IMG/VR virus record: IMGVR_UViG_3300023184_000034
Coordinates: 62,001 to 126,000 of that record
DNA length: 64,000 nt
Source of the DNA: a virus
Strand: one strand, 5' to 3'
The notes under the pieces were generated by a model, which saw nothing but the letters and a program-made list of their open reading frames with translations, ran no database searches and was not told where the DNA came from. A program made the position numbers and the translations under genes. The first letter of the stretch is position 1. Each line of letters begins with the position of its first letter. Positions 3,841 through 63,499 of this stretch are shown here, piece by piece.

Positions 3841-5750
3841 TGAGCTATAACATTACACTCACCAATGGCACAACGTTAACCAAAGTTAACGATGGTACTA
3901 TAAATCAAACAGTTACAGACCTCACACTTATAGGTAAAAATTCCACAGGGTACGGTGGATTTTTTAATGATAACTTTGTGAGGTTGTTGGAAAATTTCTC
4001 CAATTCAAGCCAACCCAATTATCCGTTGACTGGTCAATTGTGGTACGATACCAGTGAAAACAGACTTAAAATTTATAACGGATCTGCATTCACTACCACA
4101 AGTGGAACAATTGTTTCATCCACAGTACCAAGCAATATTGGAGTAGGTGATATTTGGATTGACAATGTGTTGGGTCAAATGCATTTTAATGACGGACTCA
4201 ACACTGTGCTTGCTGGCCCAATTTACAATTCTAATCAGGGAATTACAGGGTTCAATGTGGAAGATGTTATTGATACTGCAGGCAGAACTCAAACTGTACT
4301 GGTTTTGTATGTGGCAAGAACTATCCTTGGTATTTTTAGCAAAACTACTTTTACACCGGCCTTGCCTATACCAGGATTCACAAACATATCTCAGTTTACA
4401 GGAAGTCAATTTGGCAATGTGCTGACAGTTACCAGCATTGCTGTTGGTTCTTTAACAGTGGGACAAGTGGTTGCAGCAAATGGCATAGCAACTGGCACAC
4501 TAATTACTGGTCAACTGTCAGGAATAACCGGCGGCACCGGAACTTATTCGTTGAGTTTGTCTGGTGTAGTGTTAACCACAACAATGACAGCGTCTTCCAA
4601 TGTGGTTAGAATAGGATTTAATACTGGAACTTTTCCCGGTGTTGTGTTTGATGCAATTGCCTCCAGAACACAATCTTTGATAGCTGCAGACGGCAGTTTA
4701 AAAACAGCTGATGATTTTATTTCTGCCAGTGAGGATTCAACCAGCAACGGACAATTGAGTATTAGAAATAATATCCCACTGATTCTAGGTGCTGGTTCTA
4801 ATGTACAGCTTAAAATAGACACCAACAGCAACACGTTCCAAATGAATTCCAACACTGCTAATTTGAACTTTGGAATTAATTTACAAACAAACGGAGCATT
4901 GCAACCCAGTTTGTTTATTGCAGGATCGTCTCAATTTGTTGGTTTGGGCACTCAAATACCCACAGCCAAATTGGATGTCAACGGCGACACTGTTATTCGT
5001 GGAAACTTAACAGTTCAAGGCACAACACAGACCATTAGCAGTACCACTGTGACCATTGCTGATAAGAATATAGAGTTGGGCAAGGTCACCAATCCCACCA
5101 ACACCACTGCAGAAAGCGGTGGAATTACATTAAAGGGTACCACTGACAAGACCGTGGTGTGGTCCGTGACTGCCACATCAACTGGGTCCAACACAGGTTA
5201 TTGGAATTTTTCAGATTTTGTCAACATCAGTAGCAGCGGCGCAAATGTGGGGTATTATATTAATGGAAACAGTGTGTTAAGCGCAACCACACTGGGTTCT
5301 GGAATCACAGGAGCACCTGGCTTAACCAGTGTTGGCGCACTGACTTCACTGCAAGCTGCATACATCAATATCAACGGAAGTACTATTTCCTATGTACACT
5401 CTGCCACAAACGGCAATATTACACTTACTCCAAAAGGTTCCGGATATGTGAGTGTCAGTTCTGCATTAATTTCCAACGTGGGAACACCAGTTAGTGGAAC
5501 AGATGCTGCTAACAAGACTTATGTAGATAACCAAATTAAATCATCTCCATTGGGATTATACATTGATTTTACCGCACTGGGCATCTCGCTGGGATCAGCA
5601 AATGCTTCAATAATTAACCTTTTAACTAAAGTCTATCCTCCAGCCATCACCACAAGTACCACAACTTGCCGTGTGTTGTGTAGTGACGGCACAGTTAGGG
5701 AATTCACGTCCAGCGGAACAGCATGGTTATACACCCAAGTAATAACTTAA
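3840..5750 (+). CDS. Tail fibre protein, paralogue of its neighbours
   Basis: The 636-aa product begins at a TAATG overlap with the previous stop. Its N-terminal ~90 residues repeat the module of the flanking genes (DGTINQTVTDLTLIG, LLENFSNS, GQLWYDTSENRLKIYNG). The middle is a repetitive beta shaft; near the C-terminal third are segments typical of phage fibre shafts and trimerisation regions (LDVNGDTVIRGNLTVQG, then GTDAANKTYVDNQI). It lacks the collar motif of the first paralogue and ends in a short unique tip, so the paralogues share an anchor but differ in their distal ends. A tail or long-tail-fibre role is inferred from this organisation. Confidence 0.75.
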   Translation: MSYNITLTNGTTLTKVNDGTINQTVTDLTLIGKNSTGYGGFFNDNFVRLLENFSNSSQPNYPLTGQLWYDTSENRLKIYNGSAFTTTSGTIVSSTVPSNIGVGDIWIDNVLGQMHFNDGLNTVLAGPIYNSNQGITGFNVEDVIDTAGRTQTVLVLYVARTILGIFSKTTFTPALPIPGFTNISQFTGSQFGNVLTVTSIAVGSLTVGQVVAANGIATGTLITGQLSGITGGTGTYSLSLSGVVLTTTMTASSNVVRIGFNTGTFPGVVFDAIASRTQSLIAADGSLKTADDFISASEDSTSNGQLSIRNNIPLILGAGSNVQLKIDTNSNTFQMNSNTANLNFGINLQTNGALQPSLFIAGSSQFVGLGTQIPTAKLDVNGDTVIRGNLTVQGTTQTISSTTVTIADKNIELGKVTNPTNTTAESGGITLKGTTDKTVVWSVTATSTGSNTGYWNFSDFVNISSSGANVGYYINGNSVLSATTLGSGITGAPGLTSVGALTSLQAAYININGSTISYVHSATNGNITLTPKGSGYVSVSSALISNVGTPVSGTDAANKTYVDNQIKSSPLGLYIDFTALGISLGSANASIINLLTKVYPPAITTSTTTCRVLCSDGTVREFTSSGTAWLYTQVIT

Positions 5751-17933: not shown

Positions 17934-18221
17934 TTATCTCGCCTGCAAAAGTGGACAGGCAATTGTGAAAAAACTTAATTCTTTTTCACTTTCAAAGCCA
18001 ATGCGTGTATTATACACAATTGTGTTGGAATTATCTAATGTAATACCTTGCCCTATATAATACCTATTATTTAAATTTTTACGAATCCACAAATCTAATG
18101 ATTTAACCAGCATTGGATTGTATTTGTCTAAAGAAGTGTATTTGAAGTGAGGACAGGCAAACTCAACCCTGCGTAGATTAAAGTAATCTAAAGGATTGGG
18201 CTTGCCATTCTTCAATGCCAT
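17934..18221 (-). CDS. Hypothetical phage protein
   Basis: The 95-aa soluble protein starts at a TAATG overlap with the stop of the VWA/metallopeptidase gene, so it is probably translationally coupled to it. It contains PNPLDYFNLRRVEFACPHF and NLNNRYYIGQGI. I do not recognise a family. Coupling suggests a role alongside the MoxR/VWA pair, but this is only positional. Confidence 0.5.
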   Translation of the reverse strand: MALKNGKPNPLDYFNLRRVEFACPHFKYTSLDKYNPMLVKSLDLWIRKNLNNRYYIGQGITLDNSNTIVYNTRIGFESEKELSFFTIACPLLQAR

Positions 18222-19405
18222 TACGCTGATTCCGCTTCAAGCTCGTAATAAGCGTACTCGCCAAATGGAGGAACAATAGTGTTATTACCGTGGATGATGA
18301 ATACTGTATCACAGTAGTTTTCATCACCCCAGCTGCCCCAAGGGTAGCCGTCTGTGAACATGATGAACTTTTTAGGTTGAATATCATTAGCTTTCATGTA
18401 TTCCCAATTGGCATCAAACTCAGTACCACCGCCACCTATTGGTTGGTAGCTATCAAACTCATCAATATTGTAACCGTCAAAGTCTGCTTCATTATATACT
18501 CTGGTGTCAAAACACCAAACTTTAATTTTAAAGTCTTTGTATTCTTCCATGATGCCTTTGATCTCTGACAAGAAATCTTTAGCTTGTTCGTCACCAATGG
18601 AACCCGACATGTCAATACCAACACAAATATCAATTGTTTCTTGAAATTGTGTACCAGGAAGTATAGCACTCATGTGCCAACCCTTGCGATTAGGACGCAT
18701 AAACGAATAGTCATTCTTGATAGTGCTTTGGATTTGCTGACGCAAAATTTCACGCCAGTTCATTTTAGGCTCTGTAAGATCTTTAATCATGCGTTGTACA
18801 TTTGCGGGAGTATTTCCCGCACCCGCTGCCTGAGCAGCTTGTATGGTGGCCTCACGTATCTCGTCACGAATTTGTTTCAATTCTTCTTTGCTGTAGCGAG
18901 GTTGACCATCTTTGCCTGGCTCACCCCAGTCAATATGTTCGTCCAGCAATTGACCAAGTGCATCTAATTCTTTTTCATCCATTTCATCATAAATCTGATC
19001 ATACACTTCTTCTGCACCCATGCCGTAGTACTTTTGATCATGGAAGATTTTAATATCCGGAATATTATGATCACCAATACGATCACGCACCAATTGTCCA
19101 TTTACACAATAGTCAGCTGCAATGTTAAAGATTTTAGCATTGCGACTTTCTCGACGACCCATGTGGTCAAATACATTGTGTAAAATTTCATGAGCAATAA
19201 CAAACTCAACTTGCTTTACAGTTAGTTTTTCAAAAAACCCACGATTAAAATAAATATGGCGACCATCAGTGGCTGCTGTGGTCAACCAATCTTCACCTTC
19301 TTGGATTTTCAATCGGGTAGCCATGTTGCCAAAGAATGGATGTTTGAGCAACAAGCTCACTCGTGCAATAATAATTTTATCAATAATTGGATCTGTATGT
19401 GACAT
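18221..19405 (-). CDS. VWA-domain protein with HExxH metallopeptidase-like domain (DUF2201 type)
   Basis: The start at 19405 (MSHTDPIIDK) has AGGA upstream and lies 23 bases downstream of a predicted transcript start. The 394-aa protein joins an N-terminal zincin-like region (HEILH at residues 72-76, further His at 81) to a C-terminal von Willebrand A domain with a MIDAS motif (DMSGS at 265-269, then later Thr and Asp loops). This matches the DUF2201 layout. The MoxR ATPase gene lies just upstream. MoxR/VWA pairs act as chaperones or activators of other complexes in bacteria; the target here is unknown. Peptidase activity is inferred only from HExxH. Confidence 0.8.
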   Translation of the reverse strand: MSHTDPIIDKIIIARVSLLLKHPFFGNMATRLKIQEGEDWLTTAATDGRHIYFNRGFFEKLTVKQVEFVIAHEILHNVFDHMGRRESRNAKIFNIAADYCVNGQLVRDRIGDHNIPDIKIFHDQKYYGMGAEEVYDQIYDEMDEKELDALGQLLDEHIDWGEPGKDGQPRYSKEELKQIRDEIREATIQAAQAAGAGNTPANVQRMIKDLTEPKMNWREILRQQIQSTIKNDYSFMRPNRKGWHMSAILPGTQFQETIDICVGIDMSGSIGDEQAKDFLSEIKGIMEEYKDFKIKVWCFDTRVYNEADFDGYNIDEFDSYQPIGGGGTEFDANWEYMKANDIQPKKFIMFTDGYPWGSWGDENYCDTVFIIHGNNTIVPPFGEYAYYELEAESA

Positions 19406-19434
19406 GTTTGTTCCTAAGTTCTTACTATGTATAT

Positions 19435-19463
19435 AGTATAACACCACCCGAAGGTGGTGTCAA
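19435..19463 (-). promoter_or_regulatory. Consensus sigma70 promoter with a hairpin filling its spacer
   Basis: On the minus strand TTGACA (19463-19458) and TATACT (19440-19435) are 17 bases apart, with a predicted start near 19428 ahead of the VWA gene. The spacer and the end of the -35 form the hairpin listed separately. Confidence 0.85.
19441..19460 (-). terminator. UUCG-capped hairpin overlapping a promoter
   Basis: ACACCACC and GGTGGTGT form a perfect 8-base stem closed by TTCG on the minus strand, 19 bases after the MoxR stop codon. UUCG-capped stems are typical of T4 terminators. No U-tract follows (TTATACT), so it could instead be an RNA-end stabiliser or processing site. Confidence 0.55.
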
Positions 19464-19479
19464 ACAGTATTAAACCAAT

Positions 19480-20580
19480 TTATTTAGAATCTTTGTCAGT
19501 TGCGGCGCTAATGTACTTGCCAAACTTAGCGTGGAAGTTGTCAAAACATTTAATCTCATCTGGATCTAACGGCAATTTGTATGTGCTCAATGCCAATTTA
19601 GTACCCATAATAACCAATTCTGTTTCAAAGTTGTTCATCATAAATTCGAAGAAATTATTAACTTGCTCGTTCCAATTCTTAGCTTTCTTATCGCAAGAAT
19701 CTTTCAACTCGTAGCACAGGGACACAGTCAACGAGTACATTGCAGAAATTTCTTTAGATTTCATTTCTTTAACTTTGCCATTCAAAATGTCTGTAGGATT
19801 AGGCATTTTGCTGGCGTGTTTACGGTGCGCCATAAATTTAATAGCAAGGCCTTCACCAACGGAACCTGACACCAAATCAGTTAATGTTTCGTTATCACAG
19901 TCGTCGTCGTGCAACAATTCGCTAACAAAGGACCAGCTGCGTGGTGTAGCAAAGGCACGGCTACTGGATTTTGGATCAAAGTCGTACAAGTCCTTTTTGG
20001 AGAAACTCAAGAAGCCAACCACATCCTTGTGAACTTTGTTTTCAGCAGCCCACTCAAAATAGTCATCCCAATTAACTAACATTTCCAAGTGAACAAAACG
20101 ATTAGCCAACGGCGCTGGCATACGGAATGTAACACCTTTGTCAGTTTCTCGGTTGCCTGCTGCAACAATTACAACATTGTCGGGCAAAGTGTATGCACCA
20201 ACTTTACGATTAAGCACCAATTGATATGCAGCTGCTTGAACGCTGGGTGCTGCACTGTTCATTTCATCCAGGAACAAGATAATGTGTTTGTGCTTTTTAG
20301 CCATTTCTTGGCTGGGCAGTTCGCTGGGCGGAGCCCACACCATTGTGTTGGAGTTTGAATCAAAATACGGAATACCTTTAATATCAGTAGGCTCCCACAG
20401 ACTCAAACGTACATCAATCACGTGAGCTTCAATCTCAACGCCAAGTTGTTTGATAATGTCAGACTTACCAATGCCGGGAGGACCCCATAGAAAGATTGGA
20501 CGCTTGTTTTTAAAAGCCTTACGGAGAGACTTTTTGGCGCCGCTTGGGCCCACTGTACGGCCTGAAATATCTGTTGCCAT
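19480..20580 (-). CDS. MoxR-family AAA+ ATPase
   Basis: The start at 20580 (MATDISGRTV) has AGGA upstream; longer alternatives run into the promoter. The 366-aa protein has Walker A GPPGIGKS (33-40), Walker B LFLDEMN (102-108), a sensor region (VVIVAAGNRETDKG) and the MoxR-type MPAPLANRFVHLEM segment. MoxR ATPases work with VWA proteins, and the next gene downstream encodes one with a metallopeptidase-like domain, so the two probably form a remodelling pair. It has its own consensus promoter and is separated from the VWA gene by a hairpin with a second promoter, so the two can be expressed at different levels. A role in takeover or assembly is inference. Confidence 0.85.
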   Translation of the reverse strand: MATDISGRTVGPSGAKKSLRKAFKNKRPIFLWGPPGIGKSDIIKQLGVEIEAHVIDVRLSLWEPTDIKGIPYFDSNSNTMVWAPPSELPSQEMAKKHKHIILFLDEMNSAAPSVQAAAYQLVLNRKVGAYTLPDNVVIVAAGNRETDKGVTFRMPAPLANRFVHLEMLVNWDDYFEWAAENKVHKDVVGFLSFSKKDLYDFDPKSSSRAFATPRSWSFVSELLHDDDCDNETLTDLVSGSVGEGLAIKFMAHRKHASKMPNPTDILNGKVKEMKSKEISAMYSLTVSLCYELKDSCDKKAKNWNEQVNNFFEFMMNNFETELVIMGTKLALSTYKLPLDPDEIKCFDNFHAKFGKYISAATDKDSK

Positions 20581-20635: not shown

Positions 20636-20664
20636 ATTATAGCGTCGATACACAATCACGTCAA
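20636..20664 (-). promoter_or_regulatory. Consensus sigma70 promoter for the MoxR gene
   Basis: TTGACG (20664-20659), 17-base spacer and a perfect TATAAT (20641-20636) on the minus strand; an A-rich CTTAAAAAA stretch just upstream could act as an UP-like element. The leader to the ATG at 20580 is about 49 bases. Confidence 0.85.
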
Positions 20665-36046: not shown

Positions 36047-38716
36047 TTAAAACTCGAATAAACTGTTAAATGTATTTTTTTCTTCTGTGCTGTTGATATC
36101 CCAATTCAACACACCGATCAAGTTGTCTAATTTGTTATCAATAATTGTTTGTTCCATTTCCGCATGGTCAAACGGAAGATCTTTAAACCATTGTGGCAAT
36201 CTCAGTTCATCAACTGGATATGCAACTGACGTGAACTCTAACGGATTGGGTTTGAGTTTACACACAATAACCTTGGCACCGTCGGTTATGTTCATTGAGT
36301 ATTTGTCGTTGTACATGCGTTTGAGCGTGTTCCAATTAATACTGGCTCTAACATGACCGGGCATATTGGCCTTGCCAGCTTTCTTTTCCTTTGCTTGATA
36401 GTCTGTGATGTTGTTGGCACGTTTGGGGCTTCCTTTTTCCCAACCAGGTCTAGCTTTGAATCGAATACGAAATTCGCTGATATGATCCAACACTTGTTGT
36501 TCTGGTTTACCCATGAGAACCATTTCAAGAACATCACTTAAAAAGTTTTGAATAAATTCTGGAGTATCACTGCGTTTGAGATCCAATCCCATGGCCTTGA
36601 TCTTGCCAGCTTTGCCATCTGTGTCCGTGCGTTTGCCTTCTTTGTCATAGTACAACACTGCGTAACGCTTCTTGGTAATAAACAAACTTTTACTACCAAC
36701 AATCTCACGACCTGCTTTGATAACTTCGCCGCGAGATTTGGGACAATGGAATGTGTCCAACATAAACTGTGGAAATGTGGTATTGACTTCTTCTGCTATT
36801 TGGTCGTATAAACCAATCACAGTTTCTCTAGTCCAAGGAATAGCACCTTTATCAATGTCCTTTTGCAATGTTTTGTAAGCACTGAAATAACACGAGTCTG
36901 TATCACCGTAAATAATGGCCTTGCCTCTGTGGTCATACTCACCTGTGATAATCTCATTTACCTTTGATGCCATGTGTTTGACAATTTGTCGACCACTCAA
37001 TGTGGTTGATTGCCCGATACGCTTGTCAAAAAACCTACAACCGTTGTTGAGAATAGCACCATACAGACTGTTAAGATTAATCTTCTTGACCAGTTGACGC
37101 TTGTCCCAGTATTCTTCTTCAACTTTGTTACCACTTTTAATACATTCTTTCAGTTTGGCCTGCATCTCTTTACGTTCACTGTACCAACGTTTTAACAAGC
37201 CTGGAATGATACCTTCTTTTTCGTAAGTGAAGATTGTGCCGTTGGCACTGAGCATCCACGGCTGATTACTTTCAAATATTAATCTGTATACTTCTGCAGC
37301 ACTTAACACATCGCTGGACTTGTCTTCCCAGTCGATGGTGATGTCAGTACCTATTTCTTGTGACATAACAGCTTCAAACTCGTCACAACCAAACTTGCCT
37401 TCCCAAGCAGCCGCAAACGATTTGCCTTTGGCCAGCTGTAATTCAATGAATTCTTCTGTGCGTGTTTGACGCAGTTGTCCAATGATGGTTTCCGGACCCA
37501 TATTGAGTGCTCTAATTGCACTGGGATATAGGCTGTTGATGTCCAATGACCCAACCCAGTCCTGTATACCTTCTTTGGGCACAGCAACATACGCACCTGC
37601 GGCCGCAGTATTTTCTTCACGGTCGTCTTTCTTAACGCGATTAGGCACTTGAAACCCACGACGATGTGCTTCGTTAATGATGGCCTGTTCAGTAACAGCC
37701 ACAGCACCCATTGTGGTCTGTAGCAACACTGTGTTTTCATGTGCCAGTGTGTTGGCTAGATCCAAAAACTTCAGTTTCTTGTCTAGTCTGTCCAACAGTG
37801 ATGTATCTTGTCTGTTGTATTCAATAAACGTTTTAAAATCATTGTTGTACAACTGATCCAGTGTGCCTTCGTACTGTGTTTTACGTTCGCCCAGTTCGTA
37901 TTCAGCAATGGCATCCAGTCTGTATGTGTGACGTTCTTCATACGTGTATTTGCGATACAGTTCAAGACTGTCCAAGTGTACACGACCAATAAAGTCATAT
38001 GTAACTGATTGACGTCCAAACTTTTCGTATTCTCTGCGTTTGGGAAACTGATCAAACAAACAAAAGCGACGAGTGTCATCTTTGCTCAACACCTTGGTCA
38101 CACGGTTAACAGTGTATGGAATATCATAACCTTCACTGTTCCAACCAGTCAGTATGTCAGCATCTTGAATTAGATCTAAAAATGCATCCAACATTTCACC
38201 TTCTGTTTTAAACAGCACAGTGTTGGGGAATTCCTTAATTTCTTCTTGTGCTTGTTCCCAAGTCAATGTCTTGGGAGGCACAGCAAAACAAATTAATGTT
38301 TCCAACCATTGTAGGTGAACAGCAATTGAGGTAATGGGCATGAACGCATCATCTGGTGTGCTGTAGCCACGTTCTGGATCAAAGTCCACTTCGATGTCAA
38401 AAAACGCCACATTGAGTTTTGGAGGATCTTGATTTAAATAATGTTCACTAAGTGTAACAAAGATTGGATTAATGTCGCTTTCAAACAGTTCTTTACTGCT
38501 GTTGATAGCTTGTTCTTTGCGTAGTTCTTTGGTGTTCTTACAGACAATGCGTGTTAATGCATCTCCGTAGATTGATTGATGTTTGCCCTTGGGGTCTTTT
38601 ACATAAAAAGTATGTTTGACAGGAATGTCTCGGAACTCACGTTCACCTTTCTTGTTGCGTTCAACCACTCGAATAACATCATTCTCGCGATCAAACCATG
38701 CATCCACATAGCTCAT
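36047..38716 (-). CDS. 43: Family B DNA polymerase (T4 gp43-like)
   Basis: The start at 38716 (MSYVDAWFDREND) has AAGGAG upstream. The 889-aa enzyme matches gp43 in length. The proofreading domain shows Exo I D107-I-E109 (VAFFDIEVDFD), Exo II LTGWNSEGYDIPY and Exo III YNRQDTSLLDRL. The polymerase domain shows motif A LDINSLYPSAIRALN, motif B KKINLNSLYGAIL and motif C IYGDTDSCYF at about residue 605. No intein or interruption is seen. It replicates the genome with the clamp, clamp loader and 5' nuclease of this window. Confidence 0.97.
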   Translation of the reverse strand: MSYVDAWFDRENDVIRVVERNKKGEREFRDIPVKHTFYVKDPKGKHQSIYGDALTRIVCKNTKELRKEQAINSSKELFESDINPIFVTLSEHYLNQDPPKLNVAFFDIEVDFDPERGYSTPDDAFMPITSIAVHLQWLETLICFAVPPKTLTWEQAQEEIKEFPNTVLFKTEGEMLDAFLDLIQDADILTGWNSEGYDIPYTVNRVTKVLSKDDTRRFCLFDQFPKRREYEKFGRQSVTYDFIGRVHLDSLELYRKYTYEERHTYRLDAIAEYELGERKTQYEGTLDQLYNNDFKTFIEYNRQDTSLLDRLDKKLKFLDLANTLAHENTVLLQTTMGAVAVTEQAIINEAHRRGFQVPNRVKKDDREENTAAAGAYVAVPKEGIQDWVGSLDINSLYPSAIRALNMGPETIIGQLRQTRTEEFIELQLAKGKSFAAAWEGKFGCDEFEAVMSQEIGTDITIDWEDKSSDVLSAAEVYRLIFESNQPWMLSANGTIFTYEKEGIIPGLLKRWYSERKEMQAKLKECIKSGNKVEEEYWDKRQLVKKINLNSLYGAILNNGCRFFDKRIGQSTTLSGRQIVKHMASKVNEIITGEYDHRGKAIIYGDTDSCYFSAYKTLQKDIDKGAIPWTRETVIGLYDQIAEEVNTTFPQFMLDTFHCPKSRGEVIKAGREIVGSKSLFITKKRYAVLYYDKEGKRTDTDGKAGKIKAMGLDLKRSDTPEFIQNFLSDVLEMVLMGKPEQQVLDHISEFRIRFKARPGWEKGSPKRANNITDYQAKEKKAGKANMPGHVRASINWNTLKRMYNDKYSMNITDGAKVIVCKLKPNPLEFTSVAYPVDELRLPQWFKDLPFDHAEMEQTIIDNKLDNLIGVLNWDINSTEEKNTFNSLFEF

Positions 38717-56890: not shown

Positions 56891-56939
56891 AAAAAAGGCT
56901 CCATTAATAGTATTAATTATACTATCTTAAATGGAGCCT
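56891..56939 (-). terminator. Rho-independent terminator enclosing a promoter
   Basis: On the minus strand AGGCTCCATT (56939-56930) pairs with AATGGAGCCT (56905-56896) and is followed by a T-run (56895-56891). An inner stem (56907-56913 with 56919-56925) closes the loop. It begins 13 bases after the stop codon of the small secreted-protein gene. Confidence 0.85.
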
Positions 56940-56944
56940 GTCAA
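56916..56944 (-). promoter_or_regulatory. Perfect consensus sigma70 promoter nested in a terminator
   Basis: TTGACA (56944-56939), 17-base spacer and TATAAT (56921-56916) on the minus strand. The predicted RNA start near 56909 lies inside the loop of the terminator, before its 3' arm. It drives dnaJ-def-clpA. Confidence 0.9.
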
Positions 56945-61305: not shown

Positions 61306-62028
61306 ATGAGAAAAAACACAAGAGTGAAAAAGCGTTTTACATCAGAAGTTAACATAATTGATTTCCAGCCATATCTTCCGGCAAAAAAGCAACGTGTGAT
61401 TATAAATGCACGTAATGCTAATCAGAAATCTTATCTCAGCAAATTGTATTCAGAAACCACAAGCATTGTGTTTGCTATTGGTCCTGCGGGCACGGGTAAA
61501 ACCATGCTGGCTGTGCAATATGGGATCAAGCTGTTTCAGGAAGGTGTAGTTGACAAAATTGTTGTGACAAGACCCGCCGTTAGTGTAGACGAAGATTTGG
61601 GATTTTTACCAGGTACATTGAATGAAAAAATGGCACCTTGGACCCGTCCTATATTTGATGTGTTTGCAGAGTATTATCAAGCCAAAGACATTGCAAAAAT
61701 GCTGGAGGATGGAACTATTGAAATAAGCCCACTTGCCTACATGCGAGGTAGAACCTTTAAAAATGCATATATTATTGCAGATGAGTGTCAAAATACCACT
61801 GTTAATCAGATGAAGATGCTGTTGACCCGTTTGGGGGAAGGATCTAAGATGGTAGTTACAGGGGATCTAGCACAGGCAGACCGATTGAGCGATAATGGTC
61901 TGATTGATTTTTGCAACCTACTTGAACAAAAGGAATATTTGGAACATATCGATATCATACGATTTGACCACAAGGACATCGAACGCCATAATGCCGTGAA
62001 GGAGGTGTTAGCGGTTTATGGAGAATAA
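61306..62028 (+). CDS. phoH: PhoH-family ATPase
   Basis: The 240-aa protein has Walker A GPAGTGKT (59-66), Walker B YIIADE (155-160) followed by CQNTTVNQMKMLLTRLG and a sensor motif KMVVTGDLAQ. This is the PhoH core without the KH extension of longer bacterial forms. PhoH is very common in aquatic phages; an RNA-related or phosphate-stress role is suggested for the family but not settled. It is the only plus-strand gene in the right-hand 48 kb. It has an AGGAG site ten bases upstream and ends at a strong terminator. Confidence 0.95.
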   Translation: MRKNTRVKKRFTSEVNIIDFQPYLPAKKQRVIINARNANQKSYLSKLYSETTSIVFAIGPAGTGKTMLAVQYGIKLFQEGVVDKIVVTRPAVSVDEDLGFLPGTLNEKMAPWTRPIFDVFAEYYQAKDIAKMLEDGTIEISPLAYMRGRTFKNAYIIADECQNTTVNQMKMLLTRLGEGSKMVVTGDLAQADRLSDNGLIDFCNLLEQKEYLEHIDIIRFDHKDIERHNAVKEVLAVYGE

Positions 62029-62052
62029 CGCATACTGCGTTAGATAGTCAAG

Positions 62053-62074
62053 AAAAGGGCCTACGGGCCCTTTT
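62053..62074. terminator. Bidirectional terminator between convergent phoH and dCMP deaminase
   Basis: AAAAGGGCC (62053-62061) and GGCCCTTTT (62066-62074) form a 9-base stem with a TACG tetraloop, followed by more T on the plus strand. On the minus strand the stop codon of the deaminase gene lies in the loop, so the hairpin ends that operon too. Confidence 0.92.
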
Positions 62075-62519
62075 TTACTTGTGTAACAGTTACGCCCGAC
62101 TTTTCAAGAAACGCAACACCACTAGTATCCCTGTAAGCGTCCCGATATAAAACACTGCTAATACCGCTTTGGTATATAAGTTTGGCACAGTCCAAACATG
62201 GAGCATGGGTAATAAACATAGTAGCACCCATACCAGATTCGTTAGATTTAGCCAACTTAGCGATTGCATTAGTTTCGGCATGAAGTACCTCTGGTTTAGT
62301 TTTTAATCTAATTTCAACAACATTTTCATCAACGTCTAGCACATGTCCAATCTCATCTTCGCAGTTGTTGTCCCAACCTGCCGGCATACCATTGTAGCCA
62401 ATTGAAATAATTCTATCATCTTTCACCACAATAGCACCCACATGTAATCTGCGAGCATGACTGAGTTCTGCAAATGTCTCTGCAGTAGTCATGTATGCAT
62501 CGATCAGTCGTTGTTTCAT
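62061..62519 (-). CDS. Deoxycytidylate (dCMP) deaminase
   Basis: The 152-aa zinc enzyme turns dCMP into dUMP, the ThyX substrate. Zinc and proton-shuttle residues are at H80-A-E82 (VLHAETNAIAKL) and P107-C108-L-D-C111 (APCLDCAKLI), and GYNGMPAGWDNNCE is typical of phage and bacterial dCMP deaminases. Length is normal. It overlaps the clamp-loader gene by 4 bases, tying nucleotide supply to replication. Together with ThyX at 16 kb it completes a route to dTTP. Confidence 0.93.
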   Translation of the reverse strand: MKQRLIDAYMTTAETFAELSHARRLHVGAIVVKDDRIISIGYNGMPAGWDNNCEDEIGHVLDVDENVVEIRLKTKPEVLHAETNAIAKLAKSNESGMGATMFITHAPCLDCAKLIYQSGISSVLYRDAYRDTSGVAFLEKSGVTVTQVKKGP

Positions 62520-63433
62520 TGCAAATAGCTTAATCTAATAAGTGTTGCAGCCAAGTTGATCTCAGGATCAATCACCAATGCATGATCCACAAGGCCCTGT
62601 TTAATCACAAGAATAGCTTTGTTTTGTTTTTCTTCCTCGCCAAAGATTTCTATGTTGTCATACAACCAGCGATAGATTTCATCCATTTCTTCTGGACGAG
62701 CTTGGCTACACACCAGTTTTCGACCTTCGTTAATTTTACCAGCCTTGAACAGTTCAACCATCTTGAACTTGTAGTCAGCTTCTCCTGTGTCACCACGCTG
62801 AGGAGTTTTCAACACATTTTCGCCACAGTTCATCTGCACAGTATTGATGCACTTGCGCAAATCCGGATATGTGGCTTTGACAAATGTATCCAGTGTGTCA
62901 ATATCAAATTCTACACCTTCGCTGATAAGTATCTCGGCCATGCGAGCTGTGAACTCTGTTTGGTCTGTCTTTTCAATATGAAATCCTTGGCATCGACTGT
63001 GTAGCGCAGGAATAATTTTATGTGGATAATTACAAGTTAAAATAAATCTAGCGGTTGTGTGATATTCCTCCATAACACCCCGAAGTGCGGCTTGTGCGCT
63101 GGGACTCAAGTAGTCTGCTTCGTCCAGCAACACAACTTTGAAGTCACCAAACGGAATCATCTGCACAAAGTTGATAATTTTATCTCTAACATCATCAACT
63201 GAGTTGGTTCGACTTGCATTGATCTCTAACAAATCCAAATCGTTTACTTCTAGTTCGTTGAACAGAATTTTAGCCAAGGTAGTTTTTCCAATACCAGCAC
63301 TGCCGCTGAACAACAGGTGTGGGATTGATTTTTCTTTGATCCAAGTTTTAACTTGTTCTCGTTGATGACTATCTCTAAACACGTATCCTTCGATAGTGCT
63401 TGGCCGATACTTTTCTACCCACAATTCTTTCAT
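62516..63433 (-). CDS. 44: Clamp loader ATPase subunit (T4 gp44-like, RFC small-subunit type)
   Basis: The 305-aa AAA+ protein has the RFC start WVEKYRPSTIEGYV, Walker A GSAGIGKT (44-51), Walker B LLDEAD (102-107) and the SRC arginine-finger motif (146-148). It matches gp44 (319 aa). It loads the gp45-like clamp of this window onto DNA. The partner gp62 is not visible here and probably lies elsewhere. It has its own promoter directly upstream and is coupled to the dCMP deaminase. Confidence 0.95.
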   Translation of the reverse strand: MKELWVEKYRPSTIEGYVFRDSHQREQVKTWIKEKSIPHLLFSGSAGIGKTTLAKILFNELEVNDLDLLEINASRTNSVDDVRDKIINFVQMIPFGDFKVVLLDEADYLSPSAQAALRGVMEEYHTTARFILTCNYPHKIIPALHSRCQGFHIEKTDQTEFTARMAEILISEGVEFDIDTLDTFVKATYPDLRKCINTVQMNCGENVLKTPQRGDTGEADYKFKMVELFKAGKINEGRKLVCSQARPEEMDEIYRWLYDNIEIFGEEEKQNKAILVIKQGLVDHALVIDPEINLAATLIRLSYLQ

Positions 63434-63460: not shown

Positions 63461-63489
63461 ATTATACAGGTGAAAACAGGCCTTGTCTA
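63461..63489 (-). promoter_or_regulatory. Sigma70-type promoter for the clamp loader, overlapping a terminator
   Basis: TAGACA (63489-63484), 17-base spacer and a perfect TATAAT (63466-63461) on the minus strand. The -35 lies in the loop of the hairpin that ends the co-chaperonin gene. AAGGAA precedes the ATG at 63433. Confidence 0.8.
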
Positions 63490-63499
63490 GAGGCCTGTT
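63473..63499 (-). terminator. Terminator of the co-chaperonin gene, -35 element in its loop
   Basis: On the minus strand AACAGGCCT (63499-63491) pairs with AGGCCTGTT (63483-63475) around a 7-base loop (CTAGACA) and is followed by TTTTC overlapping the end of the arm. It starts 5 bases after the stop codon. Confidence 0.8.

Follow-up and report, generated by a model that had tools for sequence, protein, structure and literature searches.

Can the same few bases of a phage genome end one transcript and begin the next? This question is raised by a 29-base element, termed here site A, in a stretch of viral DNA of 64,000 nucleotides (the window) that corresponds to bases 62001–126000 of the 161,029-base virus record IMGVR_UViG_3300023184_000034. 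On the minus strand, site A separates the stop codon of a gene for a MoxR-type AAA+ ATPase (MoxR; 19480–20580, minus strand) from the ATG of a gene for a protein with a DUF2201 metallopeptidase-like domain and a VWA-like domain (VWA; 18221–19405, minus strand); these gene coordinates confirm the position that an earlier note on this DNA had given for the element. Comparative analyses suggest that site A is probably the terminator of the MoxR gene, or a T4-type CUUCGG hairpin marking its RNA 3′ end, fused with a strong sigma70 promoter for the VWA gene.

The source of the window is a T4-related freshwater phage, the relation to T4 being based on a gp44-type clamp loader encoded at 62516–63433 (PHROG 168, E 2e-77). 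In terms of the ATPase and VWA genes, the nearest cultured relatives are jumbo phages. The protein encoded at 18221–19405 is labeled as an HNH (or homing) endonuclease by PHROG 1314 and in many phage records, and Pfam assigns to it the DUF2201 metallopeptidase-like and VWA-like domains; the endonuclease label is probably a propagated misannotation.

Structure of the element

Minus-strand positions 19463–19435 read TTGACA-CCACCTTCGGGTGGTGT-TATACT, a sequence with a single exact match in the whole virus record. The −35 hexamer TTGACA (19458–19463), which begins 16 nt after the MoxR stop codon, is separated by 17 nt from the −10 hexamer TATACT (19435–19440), and the spacer ends in TGT, forming an extended −10 (TGTTATACT) whose TG (19442–19443) is invariant in the alignment of relatives. 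The element scores 11/12 as a sigma70 promoter with an extended −10. The same bases include a hairpin, ACACCACC-TTCG-GGTGGTGT (19441–19460), with a perfect 8-bp stem (19460–19453 with 19448–19441), a TTCG loop (19452–19449; a UUCG tetraloop in RNA) and the promoter TG in its 3′ arm. The stem and loop occupy the entire 17-nt spacer as well as the ACA at the end of the −35, exactly as the earlier note had read them, and additional G·U and A-U pairs lengthen the stem to 10 bp. The sense RNA is predicted to fold with −19.8 kcal/mol (z = −3.5), a value equaled by 1 of 200 shuffled sequences. In a genome-wide promoter scan, site A was the sole site with a strong hairpin wholly within the spacer.

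The transcription start predicted from the spacing to the −10 is at 19428 (minus strand), and RNA from this position would fold with only −0.8 kcal/mol. A Shine-Dalgarno-like AGGA of the VWA gene (19415–19412), conserved as AGGA(G) in most relatives, precedes the VWA ATG at 19405–19403.

These features suggest a model in which RNA polymerase leaving the MoxR gene would transcribe both arms of the inverted repeat, and the CUUCGG hairpin would form in the nascent RNA just past the MoxR stop codon, either ending the transcript or pausing the polymerase and fixing the RNA 3′ end. As double-stranded DNA, the same 29 bp would be a near-consensus extended −10 sigma70 promoter, at which transcription would restart at about 19428 for the VWA gene. 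Because the new RNA would start downstream of both arms, it would lack the hairpin, and the signal would act only on RNA derived from upstream. The RNA 3′ end and 5′ start at site A, and their efficiency, are predictions from the DNA sequence; uncoupled doses of the ATPase and the VWA protein would be a plausible consequence.

The hairpin as a probable RNA 3′-end signal

Like the stem of an intrinsic terminator, the site A hairpin is a GC-rich stem-loop that would form in RNA directly 3′ of the upstream gene, right after its stop codon, and this position and shape suggest that it is the terminator, or at least an RNA 3′-end signal, of MoxR. Unlike in an intrinsic terminator, TTATA(A/C)T stands in place of the U-tract because it also serves as the −10 (TATAAT or TATACT in relatives). 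The resulting tail is U-poor rather than U-rich, with 3–4 U in the 8 nt past the stem in 79/79 relatives, and a terminator scan gave no call at site A, suggesting that termination at this site may be weak or partial. A search of Rfam gave no match for the element.

The U-poor tail is also what would be expected if the hairpin were a stabilizer or processing signal, in which case RNA 3′ ends would be made elsewhere or by cutting and the CUUCGG stem would block 3′–5′ exonucleases on the MoxR message, beside an ordinary promoter. Several intercistronic CUUCGG hairpins of T4 likewise lack a U-run. However, proper U-tracts accompany the hairpins that follow the orthologous ATPase genes of cultured jumbo phages: plain intrinsic terminators (hairpin plus U-run) are present at the MoxR–VWA junction of 121Q, GAP32, RaK2, Munch, CBB, XaC1, Phosso and Atu_ph07, and that at the ATPase gene end of Munch is annotated as a terminator. 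In addition, the hairpins of two further sites in the window, B and C, have the tails TTTTTT and TTTT, respectively. A function in stabilization or processing is thus considered unlikely, and termination remains the preferred role.

The junctions in cultured phages differ in the arrangement of their promoter elements. In 121Q, TTGACA is located directly before the terminator and TATCCT follows 17 nt on, inside the terminator; in Phosso, a separate TTGACA-17-TAAAGT follows the terminator. One Vibrio phage has a hairpin of the window type, ACACCTCC-TTCG-GGAGGTGT, with TTTTT, which makes it a plain terminator. In Paride, a plain intrinsic terminator is present at the ATPase gene end, which is not an ATPase–VWA junction, and in SCTP-2 there is only a weak hairpin before the VWA gene.

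Two further merged sites in the window

The earlier note had counted site A as a third case of merged end and start signals, and the other two, sites B (56944) and C (63489), proved to be real and conserved. At site B (56896–56944, minus strand), the promoter TTGACA-17-TATAAT (56944–56916) is embedded in a terminator hairpin (56939–56896), GGCTCCATT...AATGGAGCC-TTTTTT, so that the upper stem and loop contain the −10. Both signals are retained in 46 distinct relatives, with folding energies of −16.5 to −28 kcal/mol, and compensatory changes can be recognized by eye (GGCTCC/GGAGCC, GGTCTC/GAGACC, GGTTCC/GGAACC and GGTCCAA/TTGGACC). RNA from the predicted start of site B would fold no better than about −1.3 kcal/mol. 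In the region 56944–56890 (minus strand), the terminator 3′ arm, which contains GGAG, and the U-run constitute the leader of the next gene.

Site C (63461–63499, minus strand) is located upstream of the gp44-type clamp-loader gene and contains the hairpin AACAGGCCT-ctagaca-AGGCCTGTT, whose loop contains the −35 TAGACA (63489–63484), with the −10 TATAAT (63466–63461) located downstream. This layout is kept in five relatives, with two-sided changes at four pairs. In most other gp44 relatives, another gene is located upstream and a site-C-like element is lacking, and no merged element was found before gp44 in the cyanophages S-RIM50, S-T4 and S-SCSM2R.

The genome thus contains three merge geometries, with the hairpin in the spacer (site A), the −10 in the loop region (site B) or the −35 in the loop (site C). 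In each of them, RNA from the new start would be missing the 5′ arm.

Conservation and covariation of site A

A consensus sigma70 promoter with a covarying spacer hairpin is kept in 80/80 viral relatives. The element is directly upstream of the VWA gene in 79 of these loci; at the 80th (L033), it is at 4377 and is separated from the VWA gene by an inserted ORF. Where the VWA start is directly downstream, an identical TTGACA and a 17-nt hairpin spacer are present in 79/79 relatives, and the −10 is TATAAT or TATACT in 76/79. Arm sequences have changed in a compensatory manner (CCACC, CCTCC, CCGCC, GGACC and GGGCC, each with its complement), and the loop is mostly TNCG.

Comparison of the stem among relatives, which the earlier note had suggested, revealed that 99.5% of cells pair in an alignment of 41 distinct rows. 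The covariation score is 0.321, compared with 0.076 in shuffled alignments (0/500 reach the observed value) and at most 0.114 in slid registers, and RNAalifold recovered the same helix unprompted. Six of the ten pairs are invariant, and covariation is carried by three inner pairs. The outer five pairs are fixed by promoter elements. Because the −35 and extended −10 consensus accounts in part for the outer ACA/TGT pairing, the independent evidence comes from only five pairs, three of which covary. Promoter and hairpin are kept in the same 29 bases in dozens of related phages, and the arrangement of site A therefore looks selected rather than accidental.

The promoter of the MoxR gene itself, TTGACG-17-TATAAT (20636–20664, minus strand), is located about 1.2 kb upstream of site A in the same phages and provides an internal control, as its spacer contains no hairpin. 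TTGAC-17-TATAAT is present before MoxR in 49/64 relatives, with a 17-nt spacer in all among the matches listed. Whereas 28/30 distinct versions of the VWA promoter spacer are fully paired (mean fold, −15.1 kcal/mol), this is the case for 0/39 distinct versions of the MoxR promoter spacer (mean fold, −1.6 kcal/mol). A promoter of this phage group thus needs no spacer hairpin, in agreement with the proposal of the earlier note that the hairpin is unnecessary for the promoter.

Recurrence at other gene junctions

A scan of viral contigs for TTGACA-N4-CTTCGG-N4-TGN-TATAAT, in which eight stem bases are free, gave at least 120 stretches. Among the matches listed, all four free positions are paired in 81 of 84 distinct viral sequences; of these 81, 23 are not recognized as a MoxR/VWA junction. 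When clustered by hand, the matches listed include about 13 other gene contexts with the same design, such as sites before gp44-like and gp32-like genes (identities assigned by eye from translations). The virus IMGVR_UViG_3300006467_000093 (L123) has two promoters with spacer hairpins, each at a different gene junction, and a separate CTTCGG hairpin is located upstream of one of them.

The strand of the loop and the distance to the preceding stop codon are characteristic of these sites. The reverse-complement loop CCGAAG gave 7 matches, compared with at least 120 for CTTCGG, and the GNRA loop CGAAAG gave 8, one of which is fully paired. This one-strand bias for the UUCG loop suggests sense-strand selection of the loop, as expected of an RNA element. 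Among the matches listed, 71/79 fully paired viral sites, or 13/14 of the hand-clustered contexts, are no more than 20 nt downstream of a co-directional stop codon (based on mechanical ORF calls on the contigs), compared with 36/137 strong viral promoters generally (p ~1e-6 by context); in the other contexts, the hairpin is nearly always 0–18 nt after such a codon.

When strong viral promoters were scanned without bias, 144 sites among the matches listed included two (0.2 expected) with full pairing in this register, and the flanks of both (L088 and L312) look like a MoxR/VWA junction, suggesting that spacer hairpins are generally rare and found mainly at particular junctions. A scan of GTDB gave 19 matches, all in Clostridia-type genomes and most of them unpaired, and cellular genomes were therefore used as background. 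Four of the loci in Clostridia MAGs (L205, L207, L213 and L222) share a repeat around CGTCCCG-TTGACA-...-TTCTTCGGGGCG-TGTTATAAT, followed by ttatcgttgcgcgcgcaac, which seems to be a distinct and unrelated repeat family that includes a strong promoter.

Three readings of site A in which no RNA hairpin is used were tested against these data and judged unlikely. A palindrome in the spacer is a common operator layout, and the inverted repeat could in principle bind a dimeric phage or host regulator. Sequence-conserved half-sites would then be expected, but the arms change in sequence with their pairing kept, and nearly every arm position varies across contexts among the matches listed; in addition, the UNCG loop is confined to one strand and the MoxR promoter has no such repeat. 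An operator is thus very unlikely. As the hairpin coincides with promoter elements, it might alternatively act as DNA, in the form of a cruciform or a single-strand hairpin, as in the promoters of the phage N4 virion RNA polymerase, which are short single-strand hairpins without sigma70 elements. Unlike those promoters, site A has the full sigma70 consensus, with the 17-bp spacing and extended −10 conserved; the loop bias is confined to one strand and follows the UNCG type of RNA, and a purely promoter-side function would not predict the placement after stop codons, making this reading highly improbable. Chance, by which the GC-rich spacer of a strong promoter would be accidentally palindromic and inherited by close relatives, could explain the outer pairs, which follow from the promoter consensus, but it is contradicted by the covariation and by the hairpin-free neighboring promoter of the same phages, is at odds with the recurrence in other contexts, and is hardly credible.

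The merging of an RNA end and a start through a T4-style hairpin, as the earlier note had envisaged, is thus supported comparatively by covariation, the sense-strand UNCG loop, stop-codon placement and the orthologous terminators.

Comparison with known elements

Tuerk et al. reportedly described intercistronic C(UUCG)G hairpins of T4 in 1988. In the T4 genome (NC_000866), about 20 CUNCGG hairpins are present between genes on the coding strand. Like site A, which has a C(UNCG)G loop, they are coding-strand CUUCGG stems of high stability that separate co-directional genes. Some adjoin MotA-box-like middle promoters, at 36619 (TAAAGGGCTTCGGCCCTTTAGCTTTA...TATAAT), 5392 and 38727 (L370 and L372 are T4 loci), and at 125555 the hairpin 3′ arm adjoins the late promoter TATAAATA. 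Unlike at site A, promoter elements in T4 adjoin or overlap only the 3′ end of such hairpins, and none of the hairpins is in a sigma70 −35/−10 spacer. Compared with an extended −10 sigma70 promoter such as a T4-like early promoter, site A has the same TTGACA, 17-nt spacing and TGnTATAAT, but its spacer is constrained to a hairpin.

An overlap of the frd terminator with the ampC promoter of E. coli was reportedly found by Grundstrom and Jaurin in 1982. As at site A, the end of a transcription unit overlaps the next control region; however, the frd/ampC terminator also acts as an attenuator in the leader, downstream of the start, whereas the site A hairpin is wholly upstream and the new RNA would escape it. 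At the gp20/gp21 junction of the cultured cyanophage Syn9 (NC_008296, 18628), TTGACACCCTggacAGGGTGTGCTATAAT is located at the gp20 end and the gp20 stop codon overlaps the −35; the loop is GGAC instead of UUCG. A weaker case is present in Syn9 at 162082. In the searched literature, which covered few subscription papers, no report of a promoter spacer that contains a terminator was found. The parts are known, and their fusion in this position appears to be new.

Implications for phage transcription

A broader idea, which is put forward tentatively although it comes close to being an even proposition, is that phages of several lineages have repeatedly evolved a compact mark of about 30–50 bp in which a terminator hairpin is merged with a sigma70 promoter, the new RNA being exempt from the stop because it lacks the 5′ arm. 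At least three geometries of such a mark would exist, all in this genome. RNA polymerase that reaches such a mark from upstream might even be handed directly to the overlapping promoter. If so, dense phage genomes place a transcription stop and a start in the same bases, and a simple rule, starting downstream of the 5′ arm, would let the new RNA escape the stop. Separate predictors for promoters and terminators would miss merged sites, as exemplified by the terminator scan at site A. Elements of this kind would also be ready-made stop/start parts of about 30 bp, and the conserved sets (80 relatives for site A and 46 distinct sequences for site B) make the idea directly testable.

The window also contains a UACG-loop hairpin with a T-run (62051–62074) between convergent genes that end at 62028 and 62061. 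This is an ordinary, unmerged terminator with the same loop class as site A.
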